Assembly: GCA_030038235.1 (NCBI GenBank)
Contig: JASHPE010000350.1
Coordinates: 1-41,913 of the forward strand
Source of the DNA: Terriglobia bacterium
Lineage (GTDB): Bacteria > Acidobacteriota > Terriglobia > UBA7540
Length of the DNA: 41,913 nt
Direction: 5' to 3'
In this document: positions 1-35,582 of the stretch, one piece after another
Position numbering within the stretch: position 1 is the first letter of the stretch
How the letters are laid out: each line of letters opens with the position of its first letter
The notes under the pieces: generated by a model
What the model was told of the DNA's origin: nothing
The model's input: only the letters and a program-made list of their open reading frames with translations
Database searches by the model: none
Program-made: the position numbers and the translations under genes

Positions 1-951
1 GCTCTCTCCAACATTCTCTCTACCCTGTCAGCCTGCACTCGGGAGACAGACACGAGGGGCTGGCACAGTAAAGGCTCGGTCATCGGCATTATCTTTACCG
101 AGATCGCTGAAACCGAGAAGAGCCTGATCGCCGGCGCGGTTCTCAACCGTGTTACGAAGCAGCTTCAAAGCAACTTGGGCGTGGGCCAGGCCCAACACAT
201 TGCCATCTCATTGAACTTCTTTCCCGAGAATTGGGTTCCAGGACCGCCCCCGGGATCCGACGCCAAACTCAAGCTGTATCCCGACCTGTTCAATAATGGC
301 GACTCCAGGAAGTCCGCGCGCATCCTGAAGAGGATCATTGACGTGGTCGGAAGCACTCTGGCTCTGGTGGCCTTGTCCCCCTTGTTTGCGCTGGTGGCTC
401 TTCTTATCAAGCTCACCTCAAAGGGCCCCGTAGTTTTCAGACAGGAGAGGGTAGGGCAGCGCGGGCGAACGTTCGAGTGCTTGAAATTCAGGTCAATGCA
501 CGCTGTGAACGATCCCAGCATTCATAAAGAATACGTCCGGGCGCTGATCGCGGGTCCGCGCAGTTCCAGCCGAGCGAGAGGAGAGGCGGGCACGGTCTAC
601 AAGATCAAGCACGACCCCAGAGTCACGCCGATCGGGATGATCTTACGCAGGACCAGTCTGGACGAGCTCCCACAACTTTGGAACGTACTCAAGGGAGAAA
701 TGTCTCTGGTTGGACCGCGGCCGGCGATTCCCTACGAAATCGAATCCTATGACCTCTGGCATCGGCGGCGGGTGCTCGATGTCAAACCGGGCATCACCGG
801 CCTCTGGCAGGTGCACGGGAGAAGCAGGACAACCTTCGATGAGATGGTCCGTCTTGACATCAGATACGCCGGGAGCTGGTCGATCTGGCTCGACCTGAAA
901 ATTCTTCTCAAGACCCCGAGAGCTGTCTTGTCTGGCGAAGGAGCATATTGA
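1..951 (+). CDS. Phosphoglycosyl transferase (bacterial sugar transferase), 5'-truncated by the window edge
   Basis: The reading frame is open from base 1, so the gene starts upstream of the window; a TTG at 175 is only an internal codon. Codons 1-100 form a soluble N-terminal region ([13 protein letters not shown], then VIGIIFTEI) that looks like a degenerate regulatory domain. From about codon 108 it is a WcaJ/RfbP-type enzyme: a basic KRIIDVV followed by a hydrophobic segment (about 112-135), [13 protein letters not shown], and the family signature [10 protein letters not shown] with SLVGPRP (about 219-241), then PGITGLWQV. Such enzymes transfer a sugar-1-phosphate from a UDP-sugar to undecaprenyl phosphate at the inner membrane, starting repeat-unit synthesis. 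It is the likely initiating enzyme of the glycan locus downstream. The donor sugar cannot be told from sequence. Confidence 0.93.
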
Positions 952-1000: not shown

Positions 1001-2005
1001 ATGATTCGACTCGGGATCATCGGCTACGGTTATTGGGGACCTAATGTGGCCCGGAACTTCAACAGTAGTGTCGGTCGCTCGGAGCTGGTTGCCATCTGTG
1101 ACAGCAATCCTTCAGCGCTGGGCAGGGCGAGGAGTCAGTATCCCGGAGTTCGACTGACTGATCGTTCCGCTGACGTTCTGGCCTCCAAGGATATTGACGC
1201 GGTGGCCGTAATTACGCCGGTGGCTTCGCACTACGAAATTGCCAAGGCTGCGCTTCGTGAGGGAAAGCACGTTTTTGTCGAGAAACCCTTCACTTGCAAC
1301 GTGGAGCAAGGCGAGGAATTGGTCGAGTTGGCCCGCGAAAACGGCCGTATCGTCATGGTGGACCACACCTTTTTGTTTACCGGCGCGGTCAGGAAGATCC
1401 GCCAGCTCATCGACGACGGCGCCCTGGGCGGCTTGTATTACTACGACTCAACCAGGGTCAATCTCGGTCTCTTTCAGCACGACGTGAACGTGATCTGGGA
1501 CTTGGCTCCCCACGACCTGTCGATCATGGACTACCTCATTGACAGCCGGCCGGAAGCGGTGGTTGCCACCGGAGAGACTCATTTGAATGGGCACGCCGAC
1601 CTTGCGTTTGTCACGGTCTACTTCCCCCAGAACGTCATCGCCCACATAAACGTCAACTGGCTTTCTCCGGTGAAGGTCCGAACGACCTTGATCGGGGGCG
1701 AAAAAAAGATGCTGGTTTGGAACGACCTGGAAGTGGACGAGAAGCTCAGGGTCTATGACAAGGGAGTCCAAGTGAAGAACCGGAAGGGCGTCTACGAGCT
1801 TCTGGTCAGCTATCGTTCAGGAGATATGTGGGCCCCTAAGCTCGAACAGACCGAAGCCCTAAGAGTGGAAGTGGACTATTTCCTCGACTGCATCGAAAGA
1901 GGCGAGCGGCCGTTCAACGACGGCGAAGCCGGGGTGCGAATTGTCAAAATGCTTCAGGCCGCACACCAGTCCCTCGAACAGAGAGGGAAGGCGGTAGAGT
2001 TATGA
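1001..2005 (+). CDS. Gfo/Idh/MocA oxidoreductase, WbpB/WlbA-like UDP-HexNAc uronate 3-dehydrogenase
   Basis: 334 aa. An N-terminal Rossmann motif (GIIGYGYWGPN, residues 5-15) binds NAD(P); EKPFTCN (about residues 95-101) carries the Lys conserved in this family, followed by the usual alpha/beta substrate domain. ATG 1001 is preceded by a GAAAGGGGGAAG ribosome site. The stop overlaps the next gene by ATGA, and the following genes are a hexapeptide acetyltransferase and a DegT aminotransferase, which is the composition of the WbpB-WbpD-WbpE pathway. In that pathway the enzyme oxidises C3 of UDP-GlcNAcA (UDP-N-acetylglucosaminuronate) before transamination. The family call is firm. The substrate is inferred from neighbours, and no WbpA-type UDP-GlcNAc dehydrogenase lies in the window. 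Confidence 0.88.
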   Translation: MIRLGIIGYGYWGPNVARNFNSSVGRSELVAICDSNPSALGRARSQYPGVRLTDRSADVLASKDIDAVAVITPVASHYEIAKAALREGKHVFVEKPFTCNVEQGEELVELARENGRIVMVDHTFLFTGAVRKIRQLIDDGALGGLYYYDSTRVNLGLFQHDVNVIWDLAPHDLSIMDYLIDSRPEAVVATGETHLNGHADLAFVTVYFPQNVIAHINVNWLSPVKVRTTLIGGEKKMLVWNDLEVDEKLRVYDKGVQVKNRKGVYELLVSYRSGDMWAPKLEQTEALRVEVDYFLDCIERGERPFNDGEAGVRIVKMLQAAHQSLEQRGKAVEL

Positions 2006-2565
2006 GCGAGCACTCCGTTCGGCCCCGGCTGGCCTCGAACGACAATGGCGGTGCGCCGAACGCTGACGGACCACAATATGTCTGCGTCTCCTCCGATGTG
2101 AAGTTGGGTACCGGGGTCAGGTTTTCCAAATTCGTCAACCTTTATGGCTGCGAGGTGGGTGACAACGTCAAAATTGGGGCCTTCGTCGAGATCCAGAAGA
2201 ACGCCAAAATTGGAAACAACTGCAAAATCTCCAGCCACAGTTTTATTTGCGAGGGGGTCACCATTGAGGACGGCGTCTTCATCGGGCACGGGGTGACGTT
2301 TATCAACGACATTTATCCCCGGGCCACCGATGGCGGCGGACGATTGCAAACGGAGAGTGACTGGAGCGTAGCGCCGACCCTGGTGAAGCGAGGCGCCTCC
2401 ATCGGGTCTGGCGCCACGATCCTGGCGAACGTCGTAATCGGCGAGGAAGCGATTGTCGGAGCGGGAAGCGTGGTAACCCGGGATGTTGCAGCCCGGTCCA
2501 TTGTGGCGGGTAATCCTGCCCGCCTCCTGAGATACATTACGTCCGAAGTCGAGGTGTCGGGATGA
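2002..2565 (+). CDS. Left-handed beta-helix N-acetyltransferase, WbpD/WlbB-like
   Basis: 187 aa made of hexapeptide repeats (VGDNVKIGAFVEIQ, IGNNCKISSHSFI, IGSGATILANVVIGEEAIVGAGSVVTRDV), ending in the typical AGNPARLLRYI. This is a trimeric acetyl-CoA-dependent acyltransferase fold. The insert with FINDIYPRA after the IGHGVTF coil resembles WbpD, which acetylates the 3-amino group of UDP-2-acetamido-3-amino-2,3-dideoxyglucuronate. ATGA overlap with the upstream oxidoreductase and with the downstream aminotransferase implies translational coupling and one pathway. The fold is certain; the acceptor is inferred from context. Confidence 0.88.
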   Translation: MSEHSVRPRLASNDNGGAPNADGPQYVCVSSDVKLGTGVRFSKFVNLYGCEVGDNVKIGAFVEIQKNAKIGNNCKISSHSFICEGVTIEDGVFIGHGVTFINDIYPRATDGGGRLQTESDWSVAPTLVKRGASIGSGATILANVVIGEEAIVGAGSVVTRDVAARSIVAGNPARLLRYITSEVEVSG

Positions 2566-3791
2566 CGAAAGCGCCGGTGCCGTTCTTAGACTTGGTGCGC
2601 CCTCACGCGGAACTGGAAGACGAGCTGGTCGAGGTTGTCAGGTCCGCCCTGAGAGCGGCCGCCTTTGTCGGCGGCCCGATGGTGGAAGACTTTGAGCAGG
2701 CCTTCGCGGATTACTGCCAAACTCGCTTCGCGGTTGGTGTGGCGAGCGGAACGGACGCTCTGCGGTTTGCTCTGATGGCTGCCGGCATAGGACGCGGCCA
2801 AACCGTGCTGACCGTTCCGAACACATTCATTGCGACGGCGGAAGCGATTACACAGGCCGGGGCGCAAGTCGATTTTGTGGATGTCGACGCCCGAACGCTC
2901 AGCATGGATCCGCTCAAGCTACGGGAGTACATCGAGACGAAATGCCAGTTTGAGCCTGCAGCGGGCCGGCTGATCAACACTCAGACCCTGAGCGCGGTGA
3001 CGGCAGTCGTGCCGGTCCACCTCTATGGCCAACCGGCCGACATGGATCCGATCATCGAACTCGCAGCCCGCTACCAACTCACAGTAATCGAGGATGCCTG
3101 CCAGGCCCACGGTGCTGAGTATCTTTCGAGAAGCGAAAAACGCTGGCTGAAGGCCGGATCAATGGGCCGGGCCGCCGCGTTTAGCTTCTATCCAGGAAAG
3201 AACCTGGGCGCATGCGGAGAGGGCGGCGCGGTTACCACGAACGACGAAGAAGTGGCAGCCAAGGTTCGTATGTTGCGCGACCATGGCCAGCGCCGGAAGT
3301 ACTATCACGAAATGGAAGGCTATAATGGCCGCCTGGATGCGATTCAGGCCGGAATTCTGCTGGCGAAACTGAAGTATCTTCCGGATTGGAATGAAAGACG
3401 GCGGGAAAAGGCGGCGCACTATCGAGAACTGCTGGCCCCTGCAGATCACGACCTTGCGCTTCCGCTCGAGCCCGAATGGGCCAGGACCGTTTATCATCTC
3501 TACGTAGTGCGCGCCAAGGAACGCGATCAGCTTAAGGATTGTCTTTCGGAGGCAGGGATTGGCACGGGGATCCACTATCCCATCCCCCTTCATCTGCAGA
3601 ACGCCTACCTGAGCCTTGGCTACCGGGAAGGCGATTTCCCGGCGGCGGAATGCGCATCGCGAGAGGTCCTCTCCCTCCCCATGTACCCTGAGCTTACGCT
3701 AAGCCAGCAAAGCTACGTTGTGGAGCAACTCCTCGACGCACGAACGGTCAGCACACAGGTTCAGCTGAGCTGCCAACCAGCCCTATGTTAG
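2562..3791 (+). CDS. DegT/DnrJ/EryC1 sugar aminotransferase, WbpE-like
   Basis: 409 aa PLP-dependent enzyme of fold type I. Visible are the SGTDALRFAL cofactor-phosphate region, the VIEDACQAHGAEY segment with the PLP-pyridine Asp, and FSFYPGKNLGACGEGGA with the Schiff-base Lys at residue 213. The C-terminal substrate loop has GIHYPIPLHLQ. It would transfer an amino group from glutamate to the 3-keto sugar made by the oxidoreductase at 1001, before acetylation by the product at 2002. Start ATG 2562 overlaps the upstream stop by ATGA. The family is certain; the 3-position specificity is inferred from the trio. Confidence 0.92.
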   Translation: MTKAPVPFLDLVRPHAELEDELVEVVRSALRAAAFVGGPMVEDFEQAFADYCQTRFAVGVASGTDALRFALMAAGIGRGQTVLTVPNTFIATAEAITQAGAQVDFVDVDARTLSMDPLKLREYIETKCQFEPAAGRLINTQTLSAVTAVVPVHLYGQPADMDPIIELAARYQLTVIEDACQAHGAEYLSRSEKRWLKAGSMGRAAAFSFYPGKNLGACGEGGAVTTNDEEVAAKVRMLRDHGQRRKYYHEMEGYNGRLDAIQAGILLAKLKYLPDWNERRREKAAHYRELLAPADHDLALPLEPEWARTVYHLYVVRAKERDQLKDCLSEAGIGTGIHYPIPLHLQNAYLSLGYREGDFPAAECASREVLSLPMYPELTLSQQSYVVEQLLDARTVSTQVQLSCQPALC

Positions 3792-4714: not shown

Positions 4715-5577
4715 GCTGCGAATTGGAACCGATCACGGAGGTTGACCGTAATTCGCCCGCCTCACTGGCGGCAGGACCTTCGGGCGTTCCTCACGGGGTC
4801 CGCGAGCCTGCCCGGACCGATCCGAGGCCGCATGCCGGCCGCATCATCATCAACGCCGACGACTGGGGGCGAGATCGCGCAACCACCGACCGGACCCTCG
4901 AGTGCTGGACTAAGGGATCGCTGTCGTCGGCAAGCGCCATGGTGTTTATGGAGGATTCCGAGCGGGCCGCGGCGCTGGCCTGCGAGCGCGGATTGGACGC
5001 CGGTCTCCACCTGAATTTCACGACCCCGTTCTCAGCGAAAAACTGTCCATCAGTCCTCGCAGAACATCGGCAACGGGTTTCCAGGCGCTTGCTATTCCAT
5101 CGCTTCAGCCAAGCCATCTTTTATCCGGACCTCTTGAAATCATTTGATTATCTCGTATCCGCCCAGCTTGACGAGTACTGTCGTCTGTACGGGCAGCGGC
5201 CACAGCGGCTTGATGGTCATCATCACATGCACTTATGCGCTAATGTGCTCGTTCAAGGGCTGCTGCCGCGCGGGACCATGGTCCGGCGAAGCTTTTCGTT
5301 TCAGCCGGGAGAGAAGGGCATAGCGAATCGCCTATATCGTCGCGCGCTGGACCTGATGATTGCACGACGGCACTGTCTTACCGACTTTTTCTTTTCACTG
5401 CAGCCATTGCAACCTCCGGCTCGCCTGCAGCGGATCTTCGCCCTGGCGCGCCAGTTCGTCGTCGAAGTCGAGACGCATCCGGCCAACCCGGAGGAGTATC
5501 GGTTTCTGGTGGACGGCGAAATCGTGCGCCAGGCTGGGAACTGCCTGACCGCCGGCAGCAGTGGAATCTTCTCGTGA
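4711..5577 (+). CDS. YdjC/ChbG-family carbohydrate deacetylase
   Basis: 288 aa. The family motif INADDWG (about residues 46-52) supplies the metal-binding Asp pair. HLNFTTPFS (about residue 99) and GHHHMH (about 168-173) supply metal-binding and catalytic His residues, and [10 protein letters not shown] lies near the C-terminus. ChbG removes acetyl groups from N-acetylated oligosaccharides; a YdjC member in a glycan locus would act on an N-acetylhexosamine unit or lipid-linked intermediate. The first 40 residues are low in conservation, so the ATG at 4711 (ATGA overlap) may not be exact. No signal peptide is seen, so it is likely cytoplasmic. Confidence 0.87.
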
Positions 5578-5590
5578 AGGAGTGACTCCC

Positions 5591-6391
5591 ATGGCTTCAA
5601 GCAGGTTTGATGTTCAGGCCTGGGCGCAAGCGAACGCCGACCTCCATCCGCGCGACATCCTGGCCTTTGCCTTTGAAAAGTTCTCGCCAAACGTCGGCAT
5701 CAGCTTCAGCGGCGCCGAGGACGTCGTGTTGGTGGATCTGGCAGTGAGGCTCGGCGGCGCCTTCAGAGTGTTTTCACTGGATACGGGCCGGCTCCATTCA
5801 GAAACTTACCGATTTCTGAACACGGTGCGGGAGCACTATGCCATCCCGATCGAGATCTTCTTTCCACGATCCAACGACGTGGAGAGGCTCGTGCGCGAGA
5901 AAGGCCTTTACTCATTTTATAAAGACGGCCACACGGAGTGTTGCTCGGTACGGAAGGTCGAGCCGCTCAAGCGCGCTTTGCAATCTCTCAACGCCTGGGT
6001 CACGGGACAGCGGCGCGATCAAAGCCCGGTTACTCGCAATCACGTTGCAGCTGCAGAAATCGACCAGACGTTTTCGAACGGACGCGAATTGGTGAAATTC
6101 AATCCGCTGGCGCGGTGGACGTCGCAGCAGGTTTGGGGCTATATCCGCGAGCATGGAGTTCCTTACAATCCCCTGCATGAGCGCGGATTCGCTTCCATCG
6201 GCTGCGAACCCTGCACGCGTCCGGTGCTGCCGGGCCAGCACGAGCGCGAGGGACGCTGGTGGTGGGAAGACGCGCGGTCAAAAGAGTGCGGGCTTCATGA
6301 ACAGAATCGCGACCAAAGGCAGGAGAACGGGGCGCGGTCAACTCTCGTAACCCTCACAGATAATCCTCGGTCCGAACACTGCGAAGGGTAG
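5591..6391 (+). CDS. cysH: Assimilatory adenylyl-sulfate (APS) reductase, CysH family with Fe-S cysteines
   Basis: 266 aa from ATG 5591, chosen because AAGGAG lies 8 bases before it; an earlier GTG (5561) would lie inside the previous gene. Motifs are [14 protein letters not shown] (substrate loop), [12 protein letters not shown], the Cys pair C117-C118 in [16 protein letters not shown], CxxC at C205 and C208 in GCEPCTR, WWWE, and the catalytic Cys C233 in KECGLH. The four Fe-S cysteines mark the APS-type rather than the PAPS-only form. The reaction is APS plus reduced thioredoxin to sulfite plus AMP. It lies just before a UDP-sulfoquinovose synthase that needs sulfite, so its likely task here is local sulfite supply rather than cysteine synthesis. 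No cysD, cysN or sulfite reductase gene accompanies it. Confidence 0.95.
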
Positions 6392-6465
6392 GCGGTTCCG
6401 CGGTATGTCAATGGAGTTTGCCCTGGCGCGCAGCTTCAATAATCCAAAGAGGAGGACGAAACAAC

Positions 6466-7734
6466 ATGCGCATCTTTATTGCGGGGCTTGACGGGTACCT
6501 CGGATGGTCTCTGGCGCAACACCTGACCTTGCGGGGTCATGAAATCGGAGGAGCAGACGCTTTCTTTCGGCGAAAATGGGTGGACGAAATGGGCTCTTGG
6601 AGCGCCACCCCGATCGCGACTATGGGAGACAGACTGAATGCGTTCGAACACCGCTTTGGGAGGCCGCTCCGTTTCTGGGAGGCCGATCTTCGGCAGTACG
6701 ATTTTGTCGAGCGGATGTTCTCTGAGTTCCAGCCCGATGCCATCGTACATCTCGGGGAGTGCCCTTCTGCTCCGTACTCCATGATCGACGTGAACCATGC
6801 CGTCGAAGTACAAACCAACAACGTCACAAGCACGCTAAATTTCCTGTTTGCTATCCGCAATATTTGTCCTGATGCCCACCTTGTAAAGCTCGGGACCATG
6901 GGTGAATACGGCACTCCTGGCGTCGACATTCCGGAAGGCTTCTTTGAGATCGAGTTCCGGGGCCGACGCGCGAAACTCCCGTTTCCGCGACTCGCGGGTT
7001 CGTGGTACCACTGGTCCAAGGTCCACGGATCGAACAACGTTATGTTCGCCTGCAAGATCTACAATTTGCGAGCCACCGACGTCATGCAGGGCGTTGTGTT
7101 CGGGACGCGCATCGACGCCATGGGCGACGATGAAAAACTGCTGACCCGCGTGGATTTCGACCAGGCCTTCGGGACCGCCGTAAACCGCTTCTGTTGCCAG
7201 GCCGTCATCGGCCATCCGTTGACGCCGTATGGCAAAGGTCAGCAGCGCCGCGGCTTCCTGCCCTTGCGCGATTCCATGCAGTGCCTGACTCTTGCGCTCG
7301 AGAACCCACCTCGAAAGGGCGAATATCGGGTCTTCAACCAATTTGAAGAGGTTTATGGCATCACCGAGCTGGCGGTCAAGGTCAAGAGAGTCGCCGCAAC
7401 CTTGGGATTGAACGTTGAGGTGAGGAATATGGAGAATCCCCGGGATGAAATGGAAGAGCACTATTACCGGCCTGACCATCAGAACCTCTTTGACCTAGGC
7501 TACAAGCCGACGCACGACGTGGAAGCGGAAATGGGAATCATGCTTGGGGACCTGATCAAACACCGCACCCGGATCGAAGCCAAGCGCGAGGCTCTAATTC
7601 CAGACGTCCACTGGAACGGGCGCAGAGGTAAGGTGCACTTCCTGCATCCGCCGGTGCCGTCGGTTCAAGCGCCACGAAGCGCTCCGTCCCCAGCCAACCA
7701 ACCCCTTCCGAGTCCCTTCCCAGCGGGTGTCTGA
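6466..7734 (+). CDS. sqdB: UDP-sulfoquinovose synthase (SQD1/SqdB)
   Basis: 422 aa extended short-chain dehydrogenase. ATG 6466 has GAGGAGG ten bases upstream, better than a TTG at 6418. The N-terminal GLDGYLGWSLAQHL is the NAD-binding glycine motif in the form found in SQD1. ECPSAPYSM and QTNNVTSTLN are also SQD1-like. The active-site residues are T144 (GTMGEYG), Y181, H182 and K185 (WYHWSK), almost the same positions as T145, Y182, H183 and K186 of plant SQD1. The enzyme makes UDP-6-sulfo-quinovose from UDP-glucose and sulfite. The C-terminal 30 residues are Pro-rich and probably disordered. SqdB normally feeds sulfolipid synthesis, but no SqdX/SqdD-type partner is seen and all neighbours are glycan genes, so a sulfoquinovose-bearing polysaccharide is inferred. 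Confidence 0.93.
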   Translation: MRIFIAGLDGYLGWSLAQHLTLRGHEIGGADAFFRRKWVDEMGSWSATPIATMGDRLNAFEHRFGRPLRFWEADLRQYDFVERMFSEFQPDAIVHLGECPSAPYSMIDVNHAVEVQTNNVTSTLNFLFAIRNICPDAHLVKLGTMGEYGTPGVDIPEGFFEIEFRGRRAKLPFPRLAGSWYHWSKVHGSNNVMFACKIYNLRATDVMQGVVFGTRIDAMGDDEKLLTRVDFDQAFGTAVNRFCCQAVIGHPLTPYGKGQQRRGFLPLRDSMQCLTLALENPPRKGEYRVFNQFEEVYGITELAVKVKRVAATLGLNVEVRNMENPRDEMEEHYYRPDHQNLFDLGYKPTHDVEAEMGIMLGDLIKHRTRIEAKREALIPDVHWNGRRGKVHFLHPPVPSVQAPRSAPSPANQPLPSPFPAGV

Positions 7735-7855: not shown

Positions 7856-8764
7856 ATGAACGAAGAATCGAATCACATTTGTGTATGTATTTGCACCTAC
7901 CGGAGGCCAGAGCTTCTCAAGCGCCTCTTGGACAGCCTCCGCGATCAGGACACAGGGGGACTCTTTACTTATTCGATCGTCGTGTCCGACAACGACAGTG
8001 CGCGCTCCGCGGAAGCGGTAGCGGCTGAATTCGCAAGGTCGTCGTCGGTCGGCATTCGCTACTGCGCGGAGCCCCAGCGGAGCGTATCGCTGACACGAAA
8101 CAGAGCCATTGAAAACGCGCGTGGAGACTTCATCGCCTTTCTCGATGATGACGAGTTCACGACGAAGGACTGGCTGCGAACATTGTTCCGGGCTTGCAGC
8201 GAGCGCGATGTGGCCGGGGTGCTCGGGCCTGTAGAATCGCACTTTGACCAGGCGCCGCCCGATTGGGTCGTGAAGGGCCACTTCTATCAACATTCGGTTT
8301 CCCCGACCGGCTCCGTGGTCTCCTGGACGAAGGCTCGAACAGGCAATGTGCTGTTTAAGAAAGCAATCCTTCCGCAGAACGAGTTGGCGTTCAGGCCGCA
8401 GTTTAGAGGCGGCGGCGCGGATCAGGACTTTTTCAGAAGAATGATCGAACAGGGCCACGTTTTTGTTTGGTGCGAAGAGGCGGTGGCCTACGAGGTTGTG
8501 CCTCCGGTACGTTGGAAGCGCAGCTTCATGCTCAGAAGAGCCTTGCTGCGGGGCGGAGCGACTCCGCTCCATCCGACATTTGGCGCGCGGGACATTGTGA
8601 AGTCCATGGTCGCGGTGCCTGCTTATGTGTTTGCCCTGCCTTTCGCCTTCGTGCTCGGACACCACAGGTTCATGAGTCTCATGATTAAGCTTTGTGACCA
8701 TCTCGGCAGGCTTCTCGCCTGCGTGGGCATAAGGCCGATCAAGGTTGCGTACGTCACCGAGTAG
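7856..8764 (+). CDS. Family 2 glycosyltransferase
   Basis: 302 aa. Visible are CICTYRRPELLKRLLDSL at the N-terminus, VVSDNDSA for the nucleotide, SLTRNRAIENARGDFIAFLDDDEF with the DDD metal site (about residues 99-101), and GGGADQDFFRRMIEQG as the acceptor-side motif. A C-terminal hydrophobic stretch (VAVPAYVFALPFAFVLG) suggests attachment to the inner membrane. AGGAG stands 11 bases before ATG 7856. The 121-base gap from the sqdB gene shows no clear terminator. It is a possible sulfoquinovosyl or other sugar transferase for the repeat unit; the donor cannot be read from sequence. Confidence 0.9.
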   Translation: MNEESNHICVCICTYRRPELLKRLLDSLRDQDTGGLFTYSIVVSDNDSARSAEAVAAEFARSSSVGIRYCAEPQRSVSLTRNRAIENARGDFIAFLDDDEFTTKDWLRTLFRACSERDVAGVLGPVESHFDQAPPDWVVKGHFYQHSVSPTGSVVSWTKARTGNVLFKKAILPQNELAFRPQFRGGGADQDFFRRMIEQGHVFVWCEEAVAYEVVPPVRWKRSFMLRRALLRGGATPLHPTFGARDIVKSMVAVPAYVFALPFAFVLGHHRFMSLMIKLCDHLGRLLACVGIRPIKVAYVTE

Positions 8765-10955: not shown

Positions 10956-11036
10956 CCATCGAGACGGCGCGTCCCTCCCCTCTCCGGTGTCGTCCTTGAC
11001 GCCGTCTGCCGAGTCTCTAAGTCGTAGTGATTGCCG

Positions 11037-11945
11037 ATGAGCGAGCGTGTGAATATTTGTGGCAGCGATATCAAGGTTCAGGGGCGTTTCCTCCGAATCG
11101 CCCGTGCTGACGGCGAGAAATATAAGTTCCTCGATGATCCCGAAGCGGTGCTGAAGGAACTCAGAACGTGCGGCAGACGCGTGGATCTGTTCACTTTCAT
11201 TCAGAGATTGCCAGAGACGGCGCCCAAATACCCCTACCCCTGGGAATGGGACAACCTGGCAGTTTTGCCGGTATCGACTTTCGATCAGTGGTGGACCAAG
11301 CAGATCGGGTTTAAAGCGCGGAACAAGGCCAAACAAGCTGAGAAAAGGGGTGTAACGTTCCGGGAGGCGCCCTTCGATGACCCCCTCGTGCAGGGCATCT
11401 GGGCGATTTACAACGAGTCGCCCGTCCGCCAGGGCCGGAGGTTCCCTCATTTCGGGAAAGATGTCGAGACCGTGCGCAGGGAAGAGGCGACGTTCCTTGA
11501 CAGCAGCATCTTCGTAGGCGCATTCCTCGACGGCAGTCTAATTGGCTTCGTGAAGCTTGTGATGGACGACACTCGAACTCAGGCGGGCTTGATGAATATC
11601 GTCTCGCTGATCCAGCATCGGGACAAAGCCCCGACGAATGCGCTCATCGCGCATGCCGTTCGCGCCTGCGCCGACAGGGGAATCCGTTACCTCGTGTATT
11701 CGAACTTCGCGTATGGGAAAAAGCAAACGAGCACCCTCAGCGACTTCAAGGAACGCAACGGATTTCAACGCGTCGATCTGCCCCGCTACTATGTCCCTCT
11801 GACCCACATTGGTAGCCTCGCTTACCAGCTCGGCCTGCACCGCCGTTTCGTCGACCGTCTGCCGGAGCCGTTGCTTGCCAGGGTCCGCGAGCTTCGCAAG
11901 GCCTGGTACCAGCGCGTGCTGCATCTGGCGGCCGAGGCTCCCTGA
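11037..11945 (+). CDS. GNAT/FemAB-like acyltransferase
   Basis: 302 aa from ATG 11037; a TTG six bases earlier is also possible and no strong ribosome site decides. WWTKQIGFKARNKAKQAEKRGVTF and the core with IFVGAFLDGSLIGFVKLV, MNIVSLIQHRDKAPTNALIAHAVR and DFKERNGFQRV follow the layout of FemAB/GNAT-fold acyl or aminoacyl transferases found in glycan loci. It lies 12 bases before an asparagine-synthase-like gene and 4.7 kb before an acyl carrier protein gene. A role in attaching an amino-acid or acyl group to an amino sugar is inference. Confidence 0.65.
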   Translation: MSERVNICGSDIKVQGRFLRIARADGEKYKFLDDPEAVLKELRTCGRRVDLFTFIQRLPETAPKYPYPWEWDNLAVLPVSTFDQWWTKQIGFKARNKAKQAEKRGVTFREAPFDDPLVQGIWAIYNESPVRQGRRFPHFGKDVETVRREEATFLDSSIFVGAFLDGSLIGFVKLVMDDTRTQAGLMNIVSLIQHRDKAPTNALIAHAVRACADRGIRYLVYSNFAYGKKQTSTLSDFKERNGFQRVDLPRYYVPLTHIGSLAYQLGLHRRFVDRLPEPLLARVRELRKAWYQRVLHLAAEAP

Positions 11946-11957
11946 ACGGAACAGACG

Positions 11958-13796
11958 ATGCCGGGAATCGTTGGCCTCATCACAAACCTGCGGAGGGAAC
12001 AGGCCGAGCCGCAATTGCTGCGGATGGTCCGGGCTATTCATCACGAGTCTTTCTATGCGTCGGGAACCTGGATCGACGAGTTGCTTGGCGTGTACGTGGG
12101 CTGGACCGCGCGCCAAGGCTCCTTCGCCGACGCCATGCCGCTTGCGAATGAGAGCGGCGACATTGTCCTGGCCTTCTCCGGGGAGGAATATCCCGAACCT
12201 GGCGCCGCCCGTCGCCTGAAGGAACGGGGACACGCGGTGGAGGCAGGCGGGCCTTCGTACCTTGTTCATCTCTACGAAGAGGACCCGGCGTTTCCGGCAG
12301 GCCTGAACGGACTGTTTCACGGTCTTGTAGCCGATAGGAAGCGCGGGACGGCGACCCTCTTCAACGATCGCTACGGACTGCGCCGCTTCTACTATCACGA
12401 GTCGAACGACGCCTTCTACTTTGCCGCGGAAGCCAAGGCGATCCTCGCGGTTCGCCCCGAGCTTCGCCAGTTCGACCTTCGCGGCCTCGGCGAGTTCATC
12501 GCCTGCGGATGCGTGCTCGAGAACCGTACGCTCTTCGAAGGCATCCAGGCGCTGCCGCCCGCCTCGGCCTGGACCTTTCGCGGTGGTGCCATCGAGGCCA
12601 GGCGCGCGTACTTCGATCCGCGCGAGTGGGAAGAGCAGGAGTCCCTGGACCCGGAAGGCTGGTACCAGGCGCTGCGCGAAGTCTTCGCGCGCAACCTTCC
12701 CCGCTACTTCACTGGCGGCGAGCCGATCGGCATGTCGCTGACAGGCGGATTGGACGGCCGCATGATCATGGCCTGGCGCAAGGCGGAAGCCGGCTCGCTT
12801 CCCTGCTATACGTTCGGAGGCTCGTACCGCGATTGCCGCGACGTCACCGTGGCGCGCAAGGTGGCCCAAGCCTGCCGCCAGCCGCACCAGGTGATCACGG
12901 TCGGCACGGACTTTCTCTCGCAATTTCCGCGCTACGCCGAGCGCGCGGTTTATCTCTCGGACGCCTCGGTGGAGTTGAACCGGACGCCGGCTCTCTACGC
13001 CAATGAGAAGGCGCGGGCGATCGCTCCCGTCAGGATGACCGGGAACTATGGCAGCGAAGTGCTGCGCGCCAATCGGGCCTTCAGGCCCCACGCGCCCATG
13101 GCCAGCCTGTTCGGTTCCGAGCTGACCCCGTATTTTCGCCAGGCACAGGCCACCTATAACGGTTTCGCCCAAACGCATCCCGTAACCTTCGCCGCTTTCC
13201 GCCAGGCTCCCTGGCACCATTACGGACTCTTCGCTTTGGAGCAGACTCAGCTTTCGGTGCGCTCGCCCTATCTCGACAACGATCTGGTCCGCACGGCCTT
13301 CCGCGCGCCCCAATCTTCTCTCACGACCGCCGACGATTGCCTGCGGCTGATCGCCGATGGAGACGCGGGCCTCCGCCAGATCCGCGCCGATCGGGGCCTC
13401 GGCGGAAATCATGGCCGCCTGACGGCTGCCGCAGCGCGCAGCTTCCTCGAATTCACCTTCAAGGCCGAGTATGCCTACGACTACGGCATGCCGCAGTGGG
13501 TGGCCCGGATCGATCATCTGTGCTCGCCCTTGCATTTCGAGCGAATTTTCCTCGGAAGGCACAAGTTCTATCATTTCCGGGTCTGGTATCGGGACGCTCT
13601 CGCCAGCTACGTTCGGGAAATGCTGCTCGACTCGCGGACGCTCTCGCGGCCTTACCTGGAACGGAACGCGGTCGAGCGAATTGTGCAAGGCCACCTCAAG
13701 GAAGGCCGGAACTACACCACGGAAATCCACAAGGTGCTGACCCTGGAACTCGTGCAGCGCCAGTTCCTCGATCCGGGATGCCTTGGCTTCGTTTAG
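11958..13796 (+). CDS. Asparagine-synthase-like protein lacking the glutaminase cysteine
   Basis: 612 aa, the usual AsnB length. It begins MPGIVGLIT where AsnB enzymes have MCGI: the N-terminal nucleophile Cys is Pro, so the glutaminase half cannot work in the standard way. Other N-domain features remain (FNDRYGLRRFYYHE, FYFAAEAKAIL). The synthase half starts near residue 230; its ATP-pyrophosphatase loop is LTGGLDGRM (from T262) in place of SGGxDS. RSPYLDNDLVRTAF is the usual AsnB C-terminal motif. Known AsnB relatives without Cys (beta-lactam synthetase) adenylate a carboxylate and use another amine. Here it may form an amide on a uronate or amino sugar, perhaps with the neighbouring acyltransferase. 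Confidence 0.85.
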   Translation: MPGIVGLITNLRREQAEPQLLRMVRAIHHESFYASGTWIDELLGVYVGWTARQGSFADAMPLANESGDIVLAFSGEEYPEPGAARRLKERGHAVEAGGPSYLVHLYEEDPAFPAGLNGLFHGLVADRKRGTATLFNDRYGLRRFYYHESNDAFYFAAEAKAILAVRPELRQFDLRGLGEFIACGCVLENRTLFEGIQALPPASAWTFRGGAIEARRAYFDPREWEEQESLDPEGWYQALREVFARNLPRYFTGGEPIGMSLTGGLDGRMIMAWRKAEAGSLPCYTFGGSYRDCRDVTVARKVAQACRQPHQVITVGTDFLSQFPRYAERAVYLSDASVELNRTPALYANEKARAIAPVRMTGNYGSEVLRANRAFRPHAPMASLFGSELTPYFRQAQATYNGFAQTHPVTFAAFRQAPWHHYGLFALEQTQLSVRSPYLDNDLVRTAFRAPQSSLTTADDCLRLIADGDAGLRQIRADRGLGGNHGRLTAAAARSFLEFTFKAEYAYDYGMPQWVARIDHLCSPLHFERIFLGRHKFYHFRVWYRDALASYVREMLLDSRTLSRPYLERNAVERIVQGHLKEGRNYTTEIHKVLTLELVQRQFLDPGCLGFV

Positions 13797-18121: not shown

Positions 18122-19564
18122 GTGCACATTCACATTCCTCCGATAATCGCCAGTCCCATATTCTTCGCCGGGATTGTCTACCTTTTCTGGCTCGACCGTG
18201 ATCCTGACGTCGAAGTTTCCAAGGCCCTCTGGATTCCGACGATATGGCTGCTCATCAACTGCTCCCGGCCGGTTTCCTTTTGGCTGGGAATAACGCGGAC
18301 GGCAGACATGGCGAGTGCCTATGCGGAGGGAAGCCCCGTCGATGCAACGGTGTTCCTGGTCCTGGTGGCTGCCGCCCTGTTCGTGCTTTTCAACCAGGGG
18401 GGGCGGATAGAACCGATCCTGCGCGAGAACTGGCCCATTGTGCTGTTCTTCGGGTATGCGGCTTTCAGCATGGTCTGGTCCGACGATCCTTTTGTCACCT
18501 TCAAGCACTGGATCAAGGGCATTGGCGACGTGATGATGGTCCTGATCGTGCTCACCGAGGCACGGCCGGTGGATGCCATGAAGCGGCTGTTGACGAGGGT
18601 CGGGTTCCTCCTCGTGCCCTTGTCGGTGCTGACCTGCAAGTACTATCCCGGCATAGCTCGGGTGCTCAGCCGAAGCTGGGAGATGGAGTACACCGGCGTT
18701 ACGGGCCAGAAGAATGGTCTTGGGGAGCTGTGCTTGTTCTTCGGACTGGGGCTTCTGTGGCGCTTTCGCAGCGTCTACAACGACCGCGAGAACCCGGACA
18801 GGCGGCGCCGGCTTCTGGCGCTGGGCACGGTCCTGGTAATGGTGATCTGGCTTCTTCGGATGTGCCAATCCCTGACTTCCATTTGCGCCCTGGGTATGGC
18901 GGGCGCGGTCATGCTGCTTTTTGTGCGGCCCGCCTTTCGTTTTAGGCCGGTGCTTGTCCATGCGCTGGTTGTGGCCCTGATCGGCATTTCGGCATTTGCG
19001 TTGTTTTTTCAGCAGTCCGGCGGCCTCGTACAGGCTTTGGGGAGAACTTCGAGCCTGAGCGGCCGGACCACAATCTGGGCCGCGGTGCTCAGCGTCCCCG
19101 TCAACCGTGTGGTGGGGGCCGGCTATGAGAGCTTCTGGCTCGGACACCGGTTGGAAGAGGTGCAGGACGTTTCGGGGCAGCCCACGAACGAGGCACATGA
19201 CGGCTACCTCGAGATGTATGTCAACCTGGGGTGGACTGGCCTCATGGTGCTGGCGCTCCTTATTGTGACAGGCTACCGAAACATAATCGGCGCCTGGCGC
19301 CGCGACCCCGATATCGGCAGCCTCCGGCTAGCGTTCCTTCTTGGGGCCCTTATCACCGCCTTCACGGAGGCCGCGTTCAGGATGCTGTCGATTACGTGGA
19401 TTTTCTTCCTTATCGCGACGATCGGGAGTTCGGAAGCTTGGGAAGGTGACGCGGCTGCCCAGACTGCGGACCAGTTTGTCGAATACCCACGCCAGGTGGG
19501 GGACGCAGACAACGATGACCGGGCTTTCGAGCCCCCTGTAGCTTCCGGAAGGCCTGGTTGGTAG
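18122..19564 (+). CDS. O-antigen ligase / polymerase family membrane protein
   Basis: 480 aa, GTG start 28 bases after the methyltransferase gene. There are about 10-12 hydrophobic segments and a large loop before the last third. SLSGRTTIWAAVL and RVVGAGYESFWLG followed by EAHDGYLEMYVNLGW are the Wzy_C (O-antigen ligase) signature, with the catalytic-loop Arg and His typical of WaaL/ExoQ-type proteins. It polymerises or ligates undecaprenyl-linked repeat units on the periplasmic side. The soluble C-tail after residue 440 is poor in motifs. With the flippase at 20631 it suggests Wzx/Wzy-dependent export. Confidence 0.9.
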   Translation: MHIHIPPIIASPIFFAGIVYLFWLDRDPDVEVSKALWIPTIWLLINCSRPVSFWLGITRTADMASAYAEGSPVDATVFLVLVAAALFVLFNQGGRIEPILRENWPIVLFFGYAAFSMVWSDDPFVTFKHWIKGIGDVMMVLIVLTEARPVDAMKRLLTRVGFLLVPLSVLTCKYYPGIARVLSRSWEMEYTGVTGQKNGLGELCLFFGLGLLWRFRSVYNDRENPDRRRRLLALGTVLVMVIWLLRMCQSLTSICALGMAGAVMLLFVRPAFRFRPVLVHALVVALIGISAFALFFQQSGGLVQALGRTSSLSGRTTIWAAVLSVPVNRVVGAGYESFWLGHRLEEVQDVSGQPTNEAHDGYLEMYVNLGWTGLMVLALLIVTGYRNIIGAWRRDPDIGSLRLAFLLGALITAFTEAAFRMLSITWIFFLIATIGSSEAWEGDAAAQTADQFVEYPRQVGDADNDDRAFEPPVASGRPGW

Positions 19565-19611: not shown

Positions 19612-20625
19612 ATGAGTGATTCCGGGACAAGCTCGAGCGCCAGACCCGTATTTGTGGTTGGTTGCCCGCGATCGGGCACCACGCTGCTTTACAATATGAT
19701 TTTGTCGTCCGGCGGTTTTGCCCTGTTTCCCATCGAATCCCACACTTTTGACATCCTCGGCAAGAGATTCCCCAATTTGACATCACTGAGCGGCAGAAAG
19801 AGGCTCCTGGAATACTACCTGCGAACCAACAGATTCGCTGTGACGGGCTTGGACCGTGCCGCTATCGAACCCAGAGTTATGAACGGGTGCCGAAACATCG
19901 GCGATTTTCTGAAAATCGTGATGGAGGAGATGTGCCGGAAGCAGGGCGTGAGACGATGGGCGGAAAAGACCCCCCACCATGTCCTGTATATTCGTGAAAT
20001 CAAGCGGATGATTCCCGATGCGCTGATCGTTCACATCATCCGTGACGGGCGGGACGCGGCTCTCTCCAGGGTAAACATCCATCACGAGGACCGCCCTAAT
20101 ATAGCAAATCCGGATCCGGTTGGCTTCTACTTAGGGGAGTGGGGAGGGAGAATGCTGGCGGCGGGCGTGGACTGGGAATGGAAGCTTCGGGAGGGCCGGG
20201 CGGCCGGGCGGGAGATCGGGCAGGATTATTATGAATTGCACTACGAAGATCTCGTCCGGGAGCCGAGAGAAACGCTCGCGAAACTGAGCAACTTCATTGC
20301 CTATAGTCTGGACTACGACCGGATTTTGCAGGCGGGCGTAGGCGCCGTGGGGAGGCCGGACACGTCCTTTCCGGGCGAATCCTTCAACCCTGTTGGACGC
20401 TGGCAAAGACAGTGCTCGCCCGATGAACTCGCAAAGTTTGAAGCCGCGTTCGGCGACTGTCTGGAGGAACTCGGTTACGCCCTGGCTACAGACCCGCAGG
20501 ACAGGCGGAAGGCCTTCCCGGCGAGTGCGTGCCGGGCTTGGGGCCTTTCGCAGCTCCGGCTGAGGCACTGGCTTAAGCTTAATACTCCGCTCGGCCGCCG
20601 GGCAGCATGGGGAGTGGAGCTGTAG
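19612..20625 (+). CDS. Sulfotransferase family protein (PAPS-dependent)
   Basis: 337 aa. FVVGCPRSGTTLLYNM (about residues 12-27) is the 5'-phosphosulfate loop; VHIIRDGRDAALSRVN (about 140-155) is the 3'-phosphate binding motif with its Arg and Ser. WAEKTPHHV (about 116-124) matches the substrate/PAPS contact found in bacterial Sulfotransfer_3 proteins, and YYELHYEDLVREPRETL is the standard late motif. It would place a sulfate ester on a sugar hydroxyl or amine. Together with CysH-SqdB, the locus could make both C-sulfonate and O-sulfate groups. A GAGGTGACAGCCG leader precedes ATG 19612. Confidence 0.9.
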   Translation: MSDSGTSSSARPVFVVGCPRSGTTLLYNMILSSGGFALFPIESHTFDILGKRFPNLTSLSGRKRLLEYYLRTNRFAVTGLDRAAIEPRVMNGCRNIGDFLKIVMEEMCRKQGVRRWAEKTPHHVLYIREIKRMIPDALIVHIIRDGRDAALSRVNIHHEDRPNIANPDPVGFYLGEWGGRMLAAGVDWEWKLREGRAAGREIGQDYYELHYEDLVREPRETLAKLSNFIAYSLDYDRILQAGVGAVGRPDTSFPGESFNPVGRWQRQCSPDELAKFEAAFGDCLEELGYALATDPQDRRKAFPASACRAWGLSQLRLRHWLKLNTPLGRRAAWGVEL

Positions 20626-20630
20626 CGTTC

Positions 20631-22208
20631 ATGCGGGCCTACTCGACGACGCCGTTTGACGAAGCTGGAGCGGCCCGGCCCGTTGCGCAAGGCGGCGAGT
20701 TGCGCAGGCTGGCTGTCCGGGGAGCAGGCGCCATGGTTTTCGCCAGGGGCGCAACTCTGTTTTTCCAGATCGTCTCCGCGGTGGTCCTGGCCCGGCTTTT
20801 GACCCCGGCCGATTTCGGCGTGGTTGCCATGGTTACCACCTTCAGCCTCCTTCTGGTCAGTTTTGGGCTGAATGGGTTCTCCGAGGCTATTATCCAGCGG
20901 GAGCAGCTTGACCCCTTTCTCGCCGGCAACTTGTTCTGGATCAATATGGGCGGCGGCCTGGCTCTGACGATCGCGTTCGCCGCAGCCGGGTCGCTCCTGG
21001 CACGGTTTTATCGGGATCCTCTGGTGGCGCGGGTCGCTGTCGGCATCGCGCCTTCCATCCTGCTGGCGAACGCCGGATATGTTCACCTGGCTCTCCTCAA
21101 ACGGGCCATGCGTTTCGGCGCAGTTTCCGCGAACACTATTTGCGCGCGGTTCGCTTCGGTGATCGTCTCAATCGTGCTGGCCTCGACGGGGTGGGGCTAT
21201 TGGGCGTTGGTGGCCGCTGTCGTCGTTGAACCCTTGAGCACGACTATAGGGGCGTTTGCGCTGTGCCGATGGCTTCCCAGCCTGCCGAGGCGCAAGGCAG
21301 GGACGGCGGACATGGTCAAGTACGCAGCTAACGTCTACAGCAGGTTCGCCGCCAATTATTCTGTGCGGAACCTCGACAACCTTCTGGTGGGCTGGCGCTT
21401 CAACGCCGTAGCACTCGGGTTCTATAAGAAGGCTTATGACTTGTTTGCGTTTCCCGTCACTCAACTGGTGGGGCCACTGGCGGATGTGGCCCTGGCGACG
21501 CTCAGCCGATTGAGGGGCGACTCCGCCGAGTACAGGCGGTATCTCGTCAACTCCCTGGCCGTGGTGTCGTTCGCGGGCATGGCGATTGGGGCGGACCTCA
21601 CGCTGACAGGCAAAGACGTGGTTCGGTTGGTGCTCGGACCCCAATGGTCGGAATCGGCAAGAGTCTTCATGCTGTTTGGACCGGGGATCGGGGTGATGTT
21701 GCTCTATAACTGCTACGGCTGGATTCATCTCTCGATTGGAAGGCCGCATCGGTGGCTTCGTTGGGGGTTCGTTGAATTCGCGTTTACCGCCCTGATGTTT
21801 GTTCTGGCACTCCCGTGGGGCCCTGCAGGGATTGCCGCCGCATGGAGCCTATCTTATTGGGCCCTCTTGATTCCCGCCTTTTCGTATGCCGGGCGGCCCA
21901 TCGGGTTTGCTGCTTCATCCGTGGTCGCCGCTGCCTGGAAGTATGCCGTGGCGTCTCTGCTCGCAGGCTTGATAACTGCCACCACCCTCCAAAGGACGCG
22001 ATTCTGGGGCACTCCGCCCGATGTGAAGGTTGCGTTGGAGGCAATCATCGTGATCTCGGCCCTGTTTGTGACGCTTTACTTGGGTGCGGTCATCCTGCTT
22101 CATCGGGGATGGGGCCCGCTGCGGCAGATTGCCGGACTCTTGCGCGAACTCGCTCCGCGGTCCAAAGCCGTCGATTTAGACGCTGCGAAAGTGGAAGTTA
22201 TCGCCTAG
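20631..22208 (+). CDS. Lipid-linked glycan flippase, Wzx/WzxC type (MOP superfamily)
   Basis: 525 aa from ATG 20631, which has GGAGTGGAG in front. ATG 20607 in the same frame, inside the sulfotransferase end, is the alternative. There are about 12-14 hydrophobic segments. FARGATLFFQIVSAVVLARLLTPADFGVVAM at the N-terminus and the NLFWINMGGGL stretch are typical of polysaccharide_synt proteins of the WzxC group. YSVRNLDNLLVGWRF and LGFYKKAYDLFAFP are the mid-protein signature. It moves the undecaprenyl-linked repeat unit across the inner membrane, for the polymerase at 18122. Last base of the gene is 32 bases before the next start. Confidence 0.9.
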   Translation: MRAYSTTPFDEAGAARPVAQGGELRRLAVRGAGAMVFARGATLFFQIVSAVVLARLLTPADFGVVAMVTTFSLLLVSFGLNGFSEAIIQREQLDPFLAGNLFWINMGGGLALTIAFAAAGSLLARFYRDPLVARVAVGIAPSILLANAGYVHLALLKRAMRFGAVSANTICARFASVIVSIVLASTGWGYWALVAAVVVEPLSTTIGAFALCRWLPSLPRRKAGTADMVKYAANVYSRFAANYSVRNLDNLLVGWRFNAVALGFYKKAYDLFAFPVTQLVGPLADVALATLSRLRGDSAEYRRYLVNSLAVVSFAGMAIGADLTLTGKDVVRLVLGPQWSESARVFMLFGPGIGVMLLYNCYGWIHLSIGRPHRWLRWGFVEFAFTALMFVLALPWGPAGIAAAWSLSYWALLIPAFSYAGRPIGFAASSVVAAAWKYAVASLLAGLITATTLQRTRFWGTPPDVKVALEAIIVISALFVTLYLGAVILLHRGWGPLRQIAGLLRELAPRSKAVDLDAAKVEVIA

Positions 22209-31477: not shown

Positions 31478-31600
31478 TCACACGTGCGGTCGGCGTCTCC
31501 CTCTTGATTTCTGAGCCCTTAATCTTGGCGGTCGGCAGATTCGACCCGTGTTCGATTGGAACTCACAGGAAGCTGCGACGGCTTAAGAACCCGGAGCACA

Positions 31601-32578
31601 ATGCCTGATAATCAAGCGGATCTGCGCGCGCCACTCGATCTAACCGTTCATTCTGACGGTTCTGGCTTAGAGCTCCGCGAGCCCCTCACCGCACGAAACA
31701 CGCTCCTGGCGCTGTTGATTGCCGTGTCGCTCGCCGGCTTTTGGGCGCCAGTCCGCAACCTGACGACTCTTTCGATGGGTAGCGACGAGTATTCTTATCT
31801 CGTTCTGATACCAGCGATGGTCTTGGGTCTCTTTTACATCGAGCGGAGAACCATATTCCGGCGTATCCAGTATTCCCTCGGCGCCGGAACCATCGTCATC
31901 CTGGGCGGCCTCGTGACGGCCGGCGCCGCCGCCCTCCTATCCGGCCGGTTCAGCGTGGACGACCGGCTGTCGTTGGAGATTCTCGGCCTGGTTACGATTT
32001 GGATCGGCTCTTTCATCCTCTGCTACGGAACCAGGGCCTCGCGTGCTGGACTTTTTGCACTGCTTTTCGGCCTGTTGCTGGTGCCGCTGCCGCCAAATGT
32101 GATGGCTACGCCCATCGCGTCGGTCCAGCACGCCTCGGCGGACGTTGCCGCCTTTCTCTTTACACTCACCGGCATACCCGCTTTCCGGGACGGCTTGACA
32201 TTTTCCTTGCCCCGGCTCACGTTCGTGGTTGCGACGGAGTGCAGCGGAATTCATTCCAGCATTGCCCTGTTTATTGCCAGCATTCTGGTAGGTCATTTTT
32301 GCTTTAAAAGCGGCTGGAAGAAAGCTCTCGTGGTTCTGTTGGTATTTCCCGTCGTTTCCTTCACGAACGGACTTCGGATGTTTACTCTCGCCACGCTCGC
32401 GGTTTACGTCGACATGAGCTTCTTTTATGGGAACCTTCACCACAAGGGCGGGAGCCTTTTTTTTGCGCTTGCGCTCCTGATTTTGGCCGGCGTGACCAGA
32501 CTCCTTCGAGGCCGCTGGCCCCAGACGAAGTCGGCCTCGCCGACTGGTCCCATTACGGATACGCGCACCGGAACCTGA
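31601..32578 (+). CDS. Exosortase (EpsH-related transpeptidase of the PEP-CTERM system)
   Basis: 325 aa from ATG 31601 with GGAG 6 bases upstream; a TTG at 31556 has no ribosome site. About eight hydrophobic helices. The catalytic residues of the family are in place: C214 in ATECSGIHSSIALF, R259 in NGLRM, and H280/H281 in NLHHKGGSLFF. Exosortases cut PEP-CTERM tails at the inner membrane during export. The substrate in this window is the PEP-CTERM protein at 35583, with a decayed tail at 32619-32867 just behind the exosortase gene. Linkage with exopolysaccharide synthesis is the normal context of this family. The exact exosortase subtype is not assigned. Confidence 0.93.
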   Translation: MPDNQADLRAPLDLTVHSDGSGLELREPLTARNTLLALLIAVSLAGFWAPVRNLTTLSMGSDEYSYLVLIPAMVLGLFYIERRTIFRRIQYSLGAGTIVILGGLVTAGAAALLSGRFSVDDRLSLEILGLVTIWIGSFILCYGTRASRAGLFALLFGLLLVPLPPNVMATPIASVQHASADVAAFLFTLTGIPAFRDGLTFSLPRLTFVVATECSGIHSSIALFIASILVGHFCFKSGWKKALVVLLVFPVVSFTNGLRMFTLATLAVYVDMSFFYGNLHHKGGSLFFALALLILAGVTRLLRGRWPQTKSASPTGPITDTRTGT

Positions 32579-35399: not shown

Positions 35400-35459
35400 A
35401 TTGACCCTGCCTAGAAAGCTATATTGCTGATTCTGAATGGCTTGGTGACGTTCAGAGAC

Positions 35460-35475
35460 TGGAACGTAGCGTGCA
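35460..35475 (+). promoter_or_regulatory. Sigma-54-like -24/-12 promoter of the PEP-CTERM gene
   Basis: TGGAACGTAGCGTGCA fits TGGCACG-N4-TTGCA with mismatches at two bases, and GG and GC are 12 apart as required. It would start transcription near 35486, giving a leader of about 97 bases. The known control of PEP-CTERM genes by sigma-54 in other bacteria (PrsK/PrsR system) supports this, but it is a pattern match only. Confidence 0.4.
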
Positions 35476-35582
35476 TCAAGACCCACGCTGCGGGAGTCGA
35501 TCCGAAGCCGCTGTTGTGTACCCAAATGACGCCGGCGGCTGGGATCACGATTCACTATCTTGTTGGAGGGGGGAGACTGGAA

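Follow-up and report, generated by a model that had tools for sequence, protein, structure and literature searches.

A soil-type bacterium of the Terriglobia appears to carry a gene set for a surface polymer that bears both sulfate groups and a sugar with carbon-bound sulfonate. The genes lie in the window, by which we mean the whole 41,913-nucleotide stretch of DNA analyzed here, and form a Wzx/Wzy-type, exosortase-linked exopolysaccharide (EPS) cluster (Table 1). Two sulfur modules are set into it, a sulfotransferase and a CysH-SqdB pair, and on balance we favor, with modest confidence, an acidobacterial EPS cluster in which both operate by the mechanism proposed below. The argument is built from protein families, motifs, gene order, the presence of PAPS genes and conserved neighbors, all of which were observed directly in the sequences. 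From the gene neighborhood, the best single reading is that both sulfur routes reach one polymer, and we consider this likely.

Table 1. Features of the exopolysaccharide locus (positions within the window)
Feature	Position	Strand	Remarks
Priming sugar phosphotransferase (Bac_transf)	175..951	+	TIGR03025 above cut-off
Amino-sugar set of three genes: Gfo/Idh dehydrogenase, hexapeptide acetyltransferase, DegT aminotransferase	1001..3791	+	
CysH, APS-reductase type	5561..6391	+	CC residues 127-128, CEPC 215-218, ECGLH
SqdB-like UDP-sulfoquinovose synthase homologue, CP-motif clade	6466..7734	+	Listed ORF from TTG 6418
GT2 glycosyltransferase	7856..8764	+	Directly 3' of SqdB
Protein without Pfam match	11031..11945	+	Upstream of AsnB; 41% homologue adjoins AsnB in locus L080
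AsnB-like amidotransferase, XrtA/PEP-CTERM type	11958..13796	+	Below cut-off; 67% homologue in L080
Wzy_C/O-antigen ligase-type polymerase	18122..19564	+	Adjacent to sulfotransferase also in L080
PAPS-type sulfotransferase (Sulfotransfer_3)	19612..20625	+	Studied feature; 337-aa ORF
Wzx-type flippase (Polysacc_synt_3)	20607..22208	+	
Exosortase	31556..32578	+	142 bits against PF09721; XrtC is the top NCBIfam model, with a score under its cut-off

By family score and motifs, the product of the studied gene is a PAPS-dependent sulfotransferase in its predicted activity. It reaches 98 bits (E 1.2e-27) against Pfam Sulfotransfer_3 (PF13469; cut-off 27) and 35.2 bits against Sulfotransfer_1 (cut-off 22). 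It contains a 5'-phosphosulfate motif (VVGCPRSGTTLL) and a 3'-phosphate motif (HIIRDGRDAALS), roles that we assume for PRSGTT and IIRDGRDAALS, respectively; both align with 10 relatives, in three of which the first motif reads PRSGNN and not PRSGTT. A structure of the sulfotransferase predicted from four sequences had a mean pLDDT of 35.8, too low for the model to be of use. The Pfam scores, motifs and ORFs confirm what the earlier note had claimed, namely that a sulfotransferase with both PAPS motifs shares one locus with CysH and SqdB.

As in a Wzx/Wzy cluster for sulfated EPS, a priming transferase, glycosyltransferases, Wzx, Wzy and the sulfotransferase occur together. The sulfotransferase begins 47 bp after the end of the Wzy-like polymerase, and its 3' end overlaps the flippase frame by 19 bp. 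Further window genes encode GT2 and GT1-type transferases, a FemAB-like protein and a TylF-like methyltransferase. About 12 kb separates the two sulfur modules, which belong to a single series of glycan genes mostly on the plus strand. No Wzz/polysaccharide co-polymerase or outer-membrane export family was detected by Pfam among the 36 window ORFs scanned; as the window starts with the priming transferase at base 175 and the contig is possibly incomplete, such genes may lie elsewhere in the source assembly, which is fragmented (6.67 Mb in 481 contigs). Contamination of the contig was rejected on the basis of the grouping of CysH with copies from the same family and by synteny with a family member. 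With exosortase (XrtA/PEP-CTERM) EPS loci, the window shares an exosortase, an AsnB-like amidotransferase, a FemAB-like protein, a Wzy-like ligase and a PEP-CTERM-type glycosyltransferase according to NCBIfam models, although, general models excepted, its scores fall under the specific cut-offs. Downstream of the exosortase, the protein encoded at 35424-36320 has a PEP-CTERM-like end (AEPS, a hydrophobic stretch and KRR) and is a likely exosortase substrate.

The distribution of the sulfotransferase gene is patchy. Matches were found in 8 of 61 genomes, the source genome included, and were strong (E below 1e-50) in five; among 396 genomes of the phylum, six, again counting its own, had a match at E 1e-20 or better, and no relative was confirmed in the named genomes. 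The closest relative found, at 57-60% identity, is on contig C46 of genome G022 (locus L080), which shares with the window Wzy (50%) and Gfo/Idh (77%) in addition to the AsnB and 11031 homologues listed in Table 1. In 2 of the 10 relatives (L082 and L085), ATP sulfurylase-APS kinase and CysQ accompany the sulfotransferase. G026 has ATP sulfurylase-APS kinase followed by CysQ and then the sulfotransferase; G014 has the same order but with TauE between ATP sulfurylase-APS kinase and CysQ; in G033 (L081), the sulfotransferase is preceded by CysQ only. Such operons, in which relatives are accompanied by ATP sulfurylase-APS kinase, CysQ or both, tie the subfamily to PAPS. The dedicated operons at L082:6941-10771 and L085:9681-15005 are among those with PRSGNN as the first PAPS motif. 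In three further loci (L084, L206 and L207), a GNAT/FemAB-like gene adjoins the sulfotransferase or lies close by, and the surroundings include glycosyltransferases, UDP-glucose dehydrogenase or AsnB-like genes.

In one relative (L083), a gene for a CmlA-like diiron hydroxylase (5654-7246) adjoins the sulfotransferase, suggesting that acceptors may differ within the subfamily. This neighbor, along with the exosortase in the locus and the PEP-CTERM-like end of the protein encoded downstream of it, would fit an acceptor other than a glycan, whether a lipid, a peptide natural product or an exported PEP-CTERM-like protein. We regard such an acceptor as improbable, given that the sulfotransferase sits between Wzy and Wzx, that its Wzy/AsnB neighborhood is shared with a relative, and that the window protein has no significant match to tyrosine sulfotransferases (E 0.07 at best).

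The earlier note had suggested looking in the genome for APS kinase and ATP sulfurylase near other glycan genes. A 580-amino-acid fusion of ATP sulfurylase and APS kinase is encoded outside the window, on contig C361, and is immediately preceded by a CysQ homologue (63%); neither APS kinase nor ATP sulfurylase families were found by Pfam among the 36 window ORFs scanned. Both CysH proteins of the genome have the CC/CxxC/ECGLH pattern of APS reductases, so that assimilation can proceed without PAPS, and sulfotransferases would be the simplest reason for an APS kinase and CysQ. The genome has five Sulfotransfer_3 matches, the window copy included, and because of the other four the window enzyme is not the sole possible user of PAPS. 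A second APS-kinase-like domain occurs in the source genome (G000 C457, L002), fused to a PPDK_N-type domain and beside a Gfo/Idh gene.

The window CysH scores 263.6 bits against TIGR02055 (thioredoxin-dependent APS reductase; cut-off 235.3), and its best PDB match is the APS reductase 2goy. Its CC and CxxC motifs are presumably the cluster ligands of APS reductase. The second CysH, on contig C264, adjoins sulfite reductase and a tetrapyrrole methylase; this rules out the window CysH as the sole assimilatory copy and marks the second copy as the housekeeping enzyme and that of the window as spare. The latter looks dedicated to the adjoining SqdB, for which ATG 6466 is the likelier start because AGGAGG lies upstream; the CysH gene ends 74 bp before this ATG. 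In trees, the window CysH clusters with copies from members of its family (it joins G014 and G026 with support 0.84). The window SqdB, by contrast, clusters with sequences from other phyla; its clade, which has four members including L091, L094 and L101, has support 0.92. The two neighbors thus have different histories, CysH coming from the family and SqdB from outside it, and the pair probably came together at this site.

To judge from its motifs and placement, the window SqdB is not of the lipid type and belongs to a distinct CP-motif clade that spans many phyla and has capsule/EPS neighbors. In an alignment of 117 rows, its motifs are ECPSAPY and SWYHWSKVH, and the CP/WW pattern is seen in 48 rows. 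Besides the window, these rows represent 44 named loci, three of which are entered twice; the pattern is absent from all 30 SqdB loci of the set L048-L077, of which two belong to the source genome. Throughout the clade (6466-7734; L090-L132 and others), CP replaces QR and WW replaces FL near the active site. The SQD1/SqdB enzymes of sulfolipid synthesis (PDB 1i24) are homologous to the window protein over the full length and share its Thr, Tyr, Lys triad, but belong to a lipid pathway and read EQRSAPYS and SFYHLSKVH, compared with ECPSAPYS and SWYHWSKVH in the window.

Downstream of CP-clade SqdB genes, 31 genes were scanned with Pfam (30 of the 33 found, plus that of the window), yielding nine SDR and three GT2 proteins and one each of Bac_transf, Wzz and CysH. 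Upstream, the scan covered 33 of 38 genes found, with the confirmed sulfotransferase of L101 substituted for the automatic pick; six were GT2 and two heparinase-like, and single cases were Wzi, polysaccharide deacetylase, ATP sulfurylase, CysH and the L101 sulfotransferase. The setting of the clade is therefore largely one of surface polysaccharide, and its neighbors sometimes include CysH, ATP sulfurylase or sulfotransferases. The SDR, ~60% identical among several loci, is often directly 3' of the CP-clade SqdB. CysH and SqdB fall in one same-strand run in 3 of 46 CP/MP-type loci (L098, L099 and L153). They are direct neighbors in L099 and L153, and ATP sulfurylase intervenes in L098, which puts that pair slightly beyond 1 kb. 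Two such strict neighbors among 46 loci would arise by chance with a probability of ~0.0003 to 0.002, assuming 1 to 3 CysH genes per 4 Mb and counting neighbors within 1 kb. The run in L098 (1426-5341, from the Bipolaricaulota) consists of CysH, ATP sulfurylase, SqdB and GT2 and looks like a complete sulfate-to-sulfosugar operon.

Whether the SqdB-like enzyme makes a sulfonated sugar at all has to be weighed against the possibility that it forms some other 6-modified or 5,6-ene-derived sugar, in which case the polymer would carry O-sulfate only and CysH would be a chance neighbor. The window protein scores 542.1 bits against the NCBIfam equivalog NF041015, under the cut-off of 575, which was reached in none of the 61 genomes searched and in 1 of 14 control genomes. 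It and its clade have Pro at the position of Arg101 in Agl3, whose R101A mutant is inactive according to the part of that report drawn on here (PMC4388408), and the SDR that follows SqdB makes up 9 of the 31 downstream genes. These points all favor a different sugar. However, the same Pro occurs in other SqdB clades of the alignment, and the catalytic Thr145, Tyr182 and Lys186 of SQD1 are kept in the window protein (TMGEYG and YHWSK aligned), these being residues named in the same portion of that report (PMC4388408). Furthermore, CysH or ATP sulfurylase stands beside SqdB in L098, L099, L153 and the window, which points to sulfite as the donor. We therefore think a different sugar quite unlikely.

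A further question is whether the CysH-SqdB pair serves the locus polymer. The sulfotransferase could sulfate that polymer while CysH and SqdB supply a separate product, such as a sulfoquinovosyl lipid: the modules lie some way apart, and SqdB was first known from lipid synthesis. Moreover, G022 has the sulfotransferase module, but no CP-type SqdB was found in it, neither of its two full SqdB copies being of that type (on its contig C32, a GT4 follows SqdB), which indicates that the two modules are separable and were not inherited together. Against this, the source genome has two other SqdB copies, on contigs C209 and C63 (L064 and L075). That on C209, with an MGDG-synthase-like glycosyltransferase one gene downstream, fits the lipid role, and clade placement speaks against the window copy as the sulfolipid enzyme. 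The C63 copy is of another type (QP/FL). In addition, the clade of the window SqdB has EPS-type neighbors, and the gene that follows it encodes a GT2 and not a GT4 of the SqdX type. A separate product is thus unlikely, in our estimation, and the GT2 is a candidate sulfoquinovosyl transferase.

Regular co-travel of sulfotransferases with SqdB is suggestive and weakly supported. An in-house profile run on the retrieved stretches of all 80 SqdB loci detected sulfotransferases only in L101 and L129; the Sulfotransfer_3 genes there number two in L101 (Thermoanaerobaculia), and that of L129 (Acidobacteriia) is accompanied by a flippase-like gene. Two of 30 loci compares with an expected 0.28 (Poisson about 0.03), the expectation being a rough density estimate based on sulfotransferase counts for the genomes to which 30 of the 80 loci belong. 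The above considerations divide what the earlier note had proposed. Its view that the glycan locus brings two sulfur routes together stands, with CysH yielding sulfite, SqdB-like enzymes using sulfite and the sulfotransferase using PAPS. The extension to sulfate and sulfonate in the same polymer is a likely proposal, tempered by the SqdB clade being without the Arg essential in Agl3 and by the nearest relative having the sulfotransferase module without that type of SqdB.

In the mechanism that we favor, CysH would reduce APS to sulfite, and the SqdB-like enzyme would add this to a 5,6-ene derived from UDP-glucose, forming UDP-sulfoquinovose or a close relative. A glycosyltransferase of the locus would then transfer the sulfonated sugar to the repeat unit. 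PAPS would be provided by the ATP sulfurylase and APS kinase encoded elsewhere in the genome. Acting in the cytoplasm, the sulfotransferase would sulfate a hydroxyl group of the repeat unit while this is lipid-linked and still unflipped, and CysQ would remove PAP. The acceptor, the product sugar and the presence of both groups in one polymer are the parts of this scheme that we infer.

Relatives are known for each sulfur half, but there is little precedent for finding the two together in a single bacterial locus. The product of the synechan xss cluster of Synechocystis PCC 6803 was identified by chemistry as a sulfated EPS in the parts of the report used here (PMC8205485). Like the window, xss is a Wzx/Wzy EPS cluster with glycosyltransferase and sulfotransferase genes; unlike it, the cluster is cyanobacterial, has two sulfotransferases and makes a polymer of four neutral sugars and sulfate, and those parts of the report name no CysH-SqdB pair for it. 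In the same excerpts, its authors, writing in 2021, knew of no sulfotransferase genes that had been found in other bacterial extracellular polysaccharide clusters, and they then found such genes in many cyanobacteria (PMC8205485). Agl3 of Sulfolobus acidocaldarius resembles the window SqdB in being a UDP-sulfoquinovose synthase for a surface glycan and not a lipid, as described in the portions drawn on of PMC4388408 and PMC9549778; that system differs in serving an archaeal protein N-glycan and in having Arg101, and a sulfotransferase is not named in those portions. Within the set of open-access papers covered, the terms searched brought up no polysaccharide locus of a bacterium that combines a sulfotransferase with a sulfoquinovose synthase. 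In granular-sludge EPS, according to the part of that study used here, sulfated glycoconjugates have been measured and their genes were hard to find (PMC10483923).

In its widest form, our proposal is that a non-photosynthetic bacterium draws on a single APS pool to make a surface polymer that combines O-sulfate esters with a C-sulfonate sugar, and that the CP-type SqdB clade is a polysaccharide-dedicated lineage of sulfonated-sugar synthases, present in many phyla and working without the Arg essential in Agl3. We hold this combined proposal tentatively and with some doubt. If true, Wzx/Wzy-made sulfated EPS would not be confined to cyanobacteria, contrary to the view expressed in the cited parts of the 2021 synechan paper; sulfoquinovose would come from a bacterial polymer as well as from plant and algal lipid; and the CP-type SqdB would provide an anchor clade for finding sulfonated bacterial glycans.
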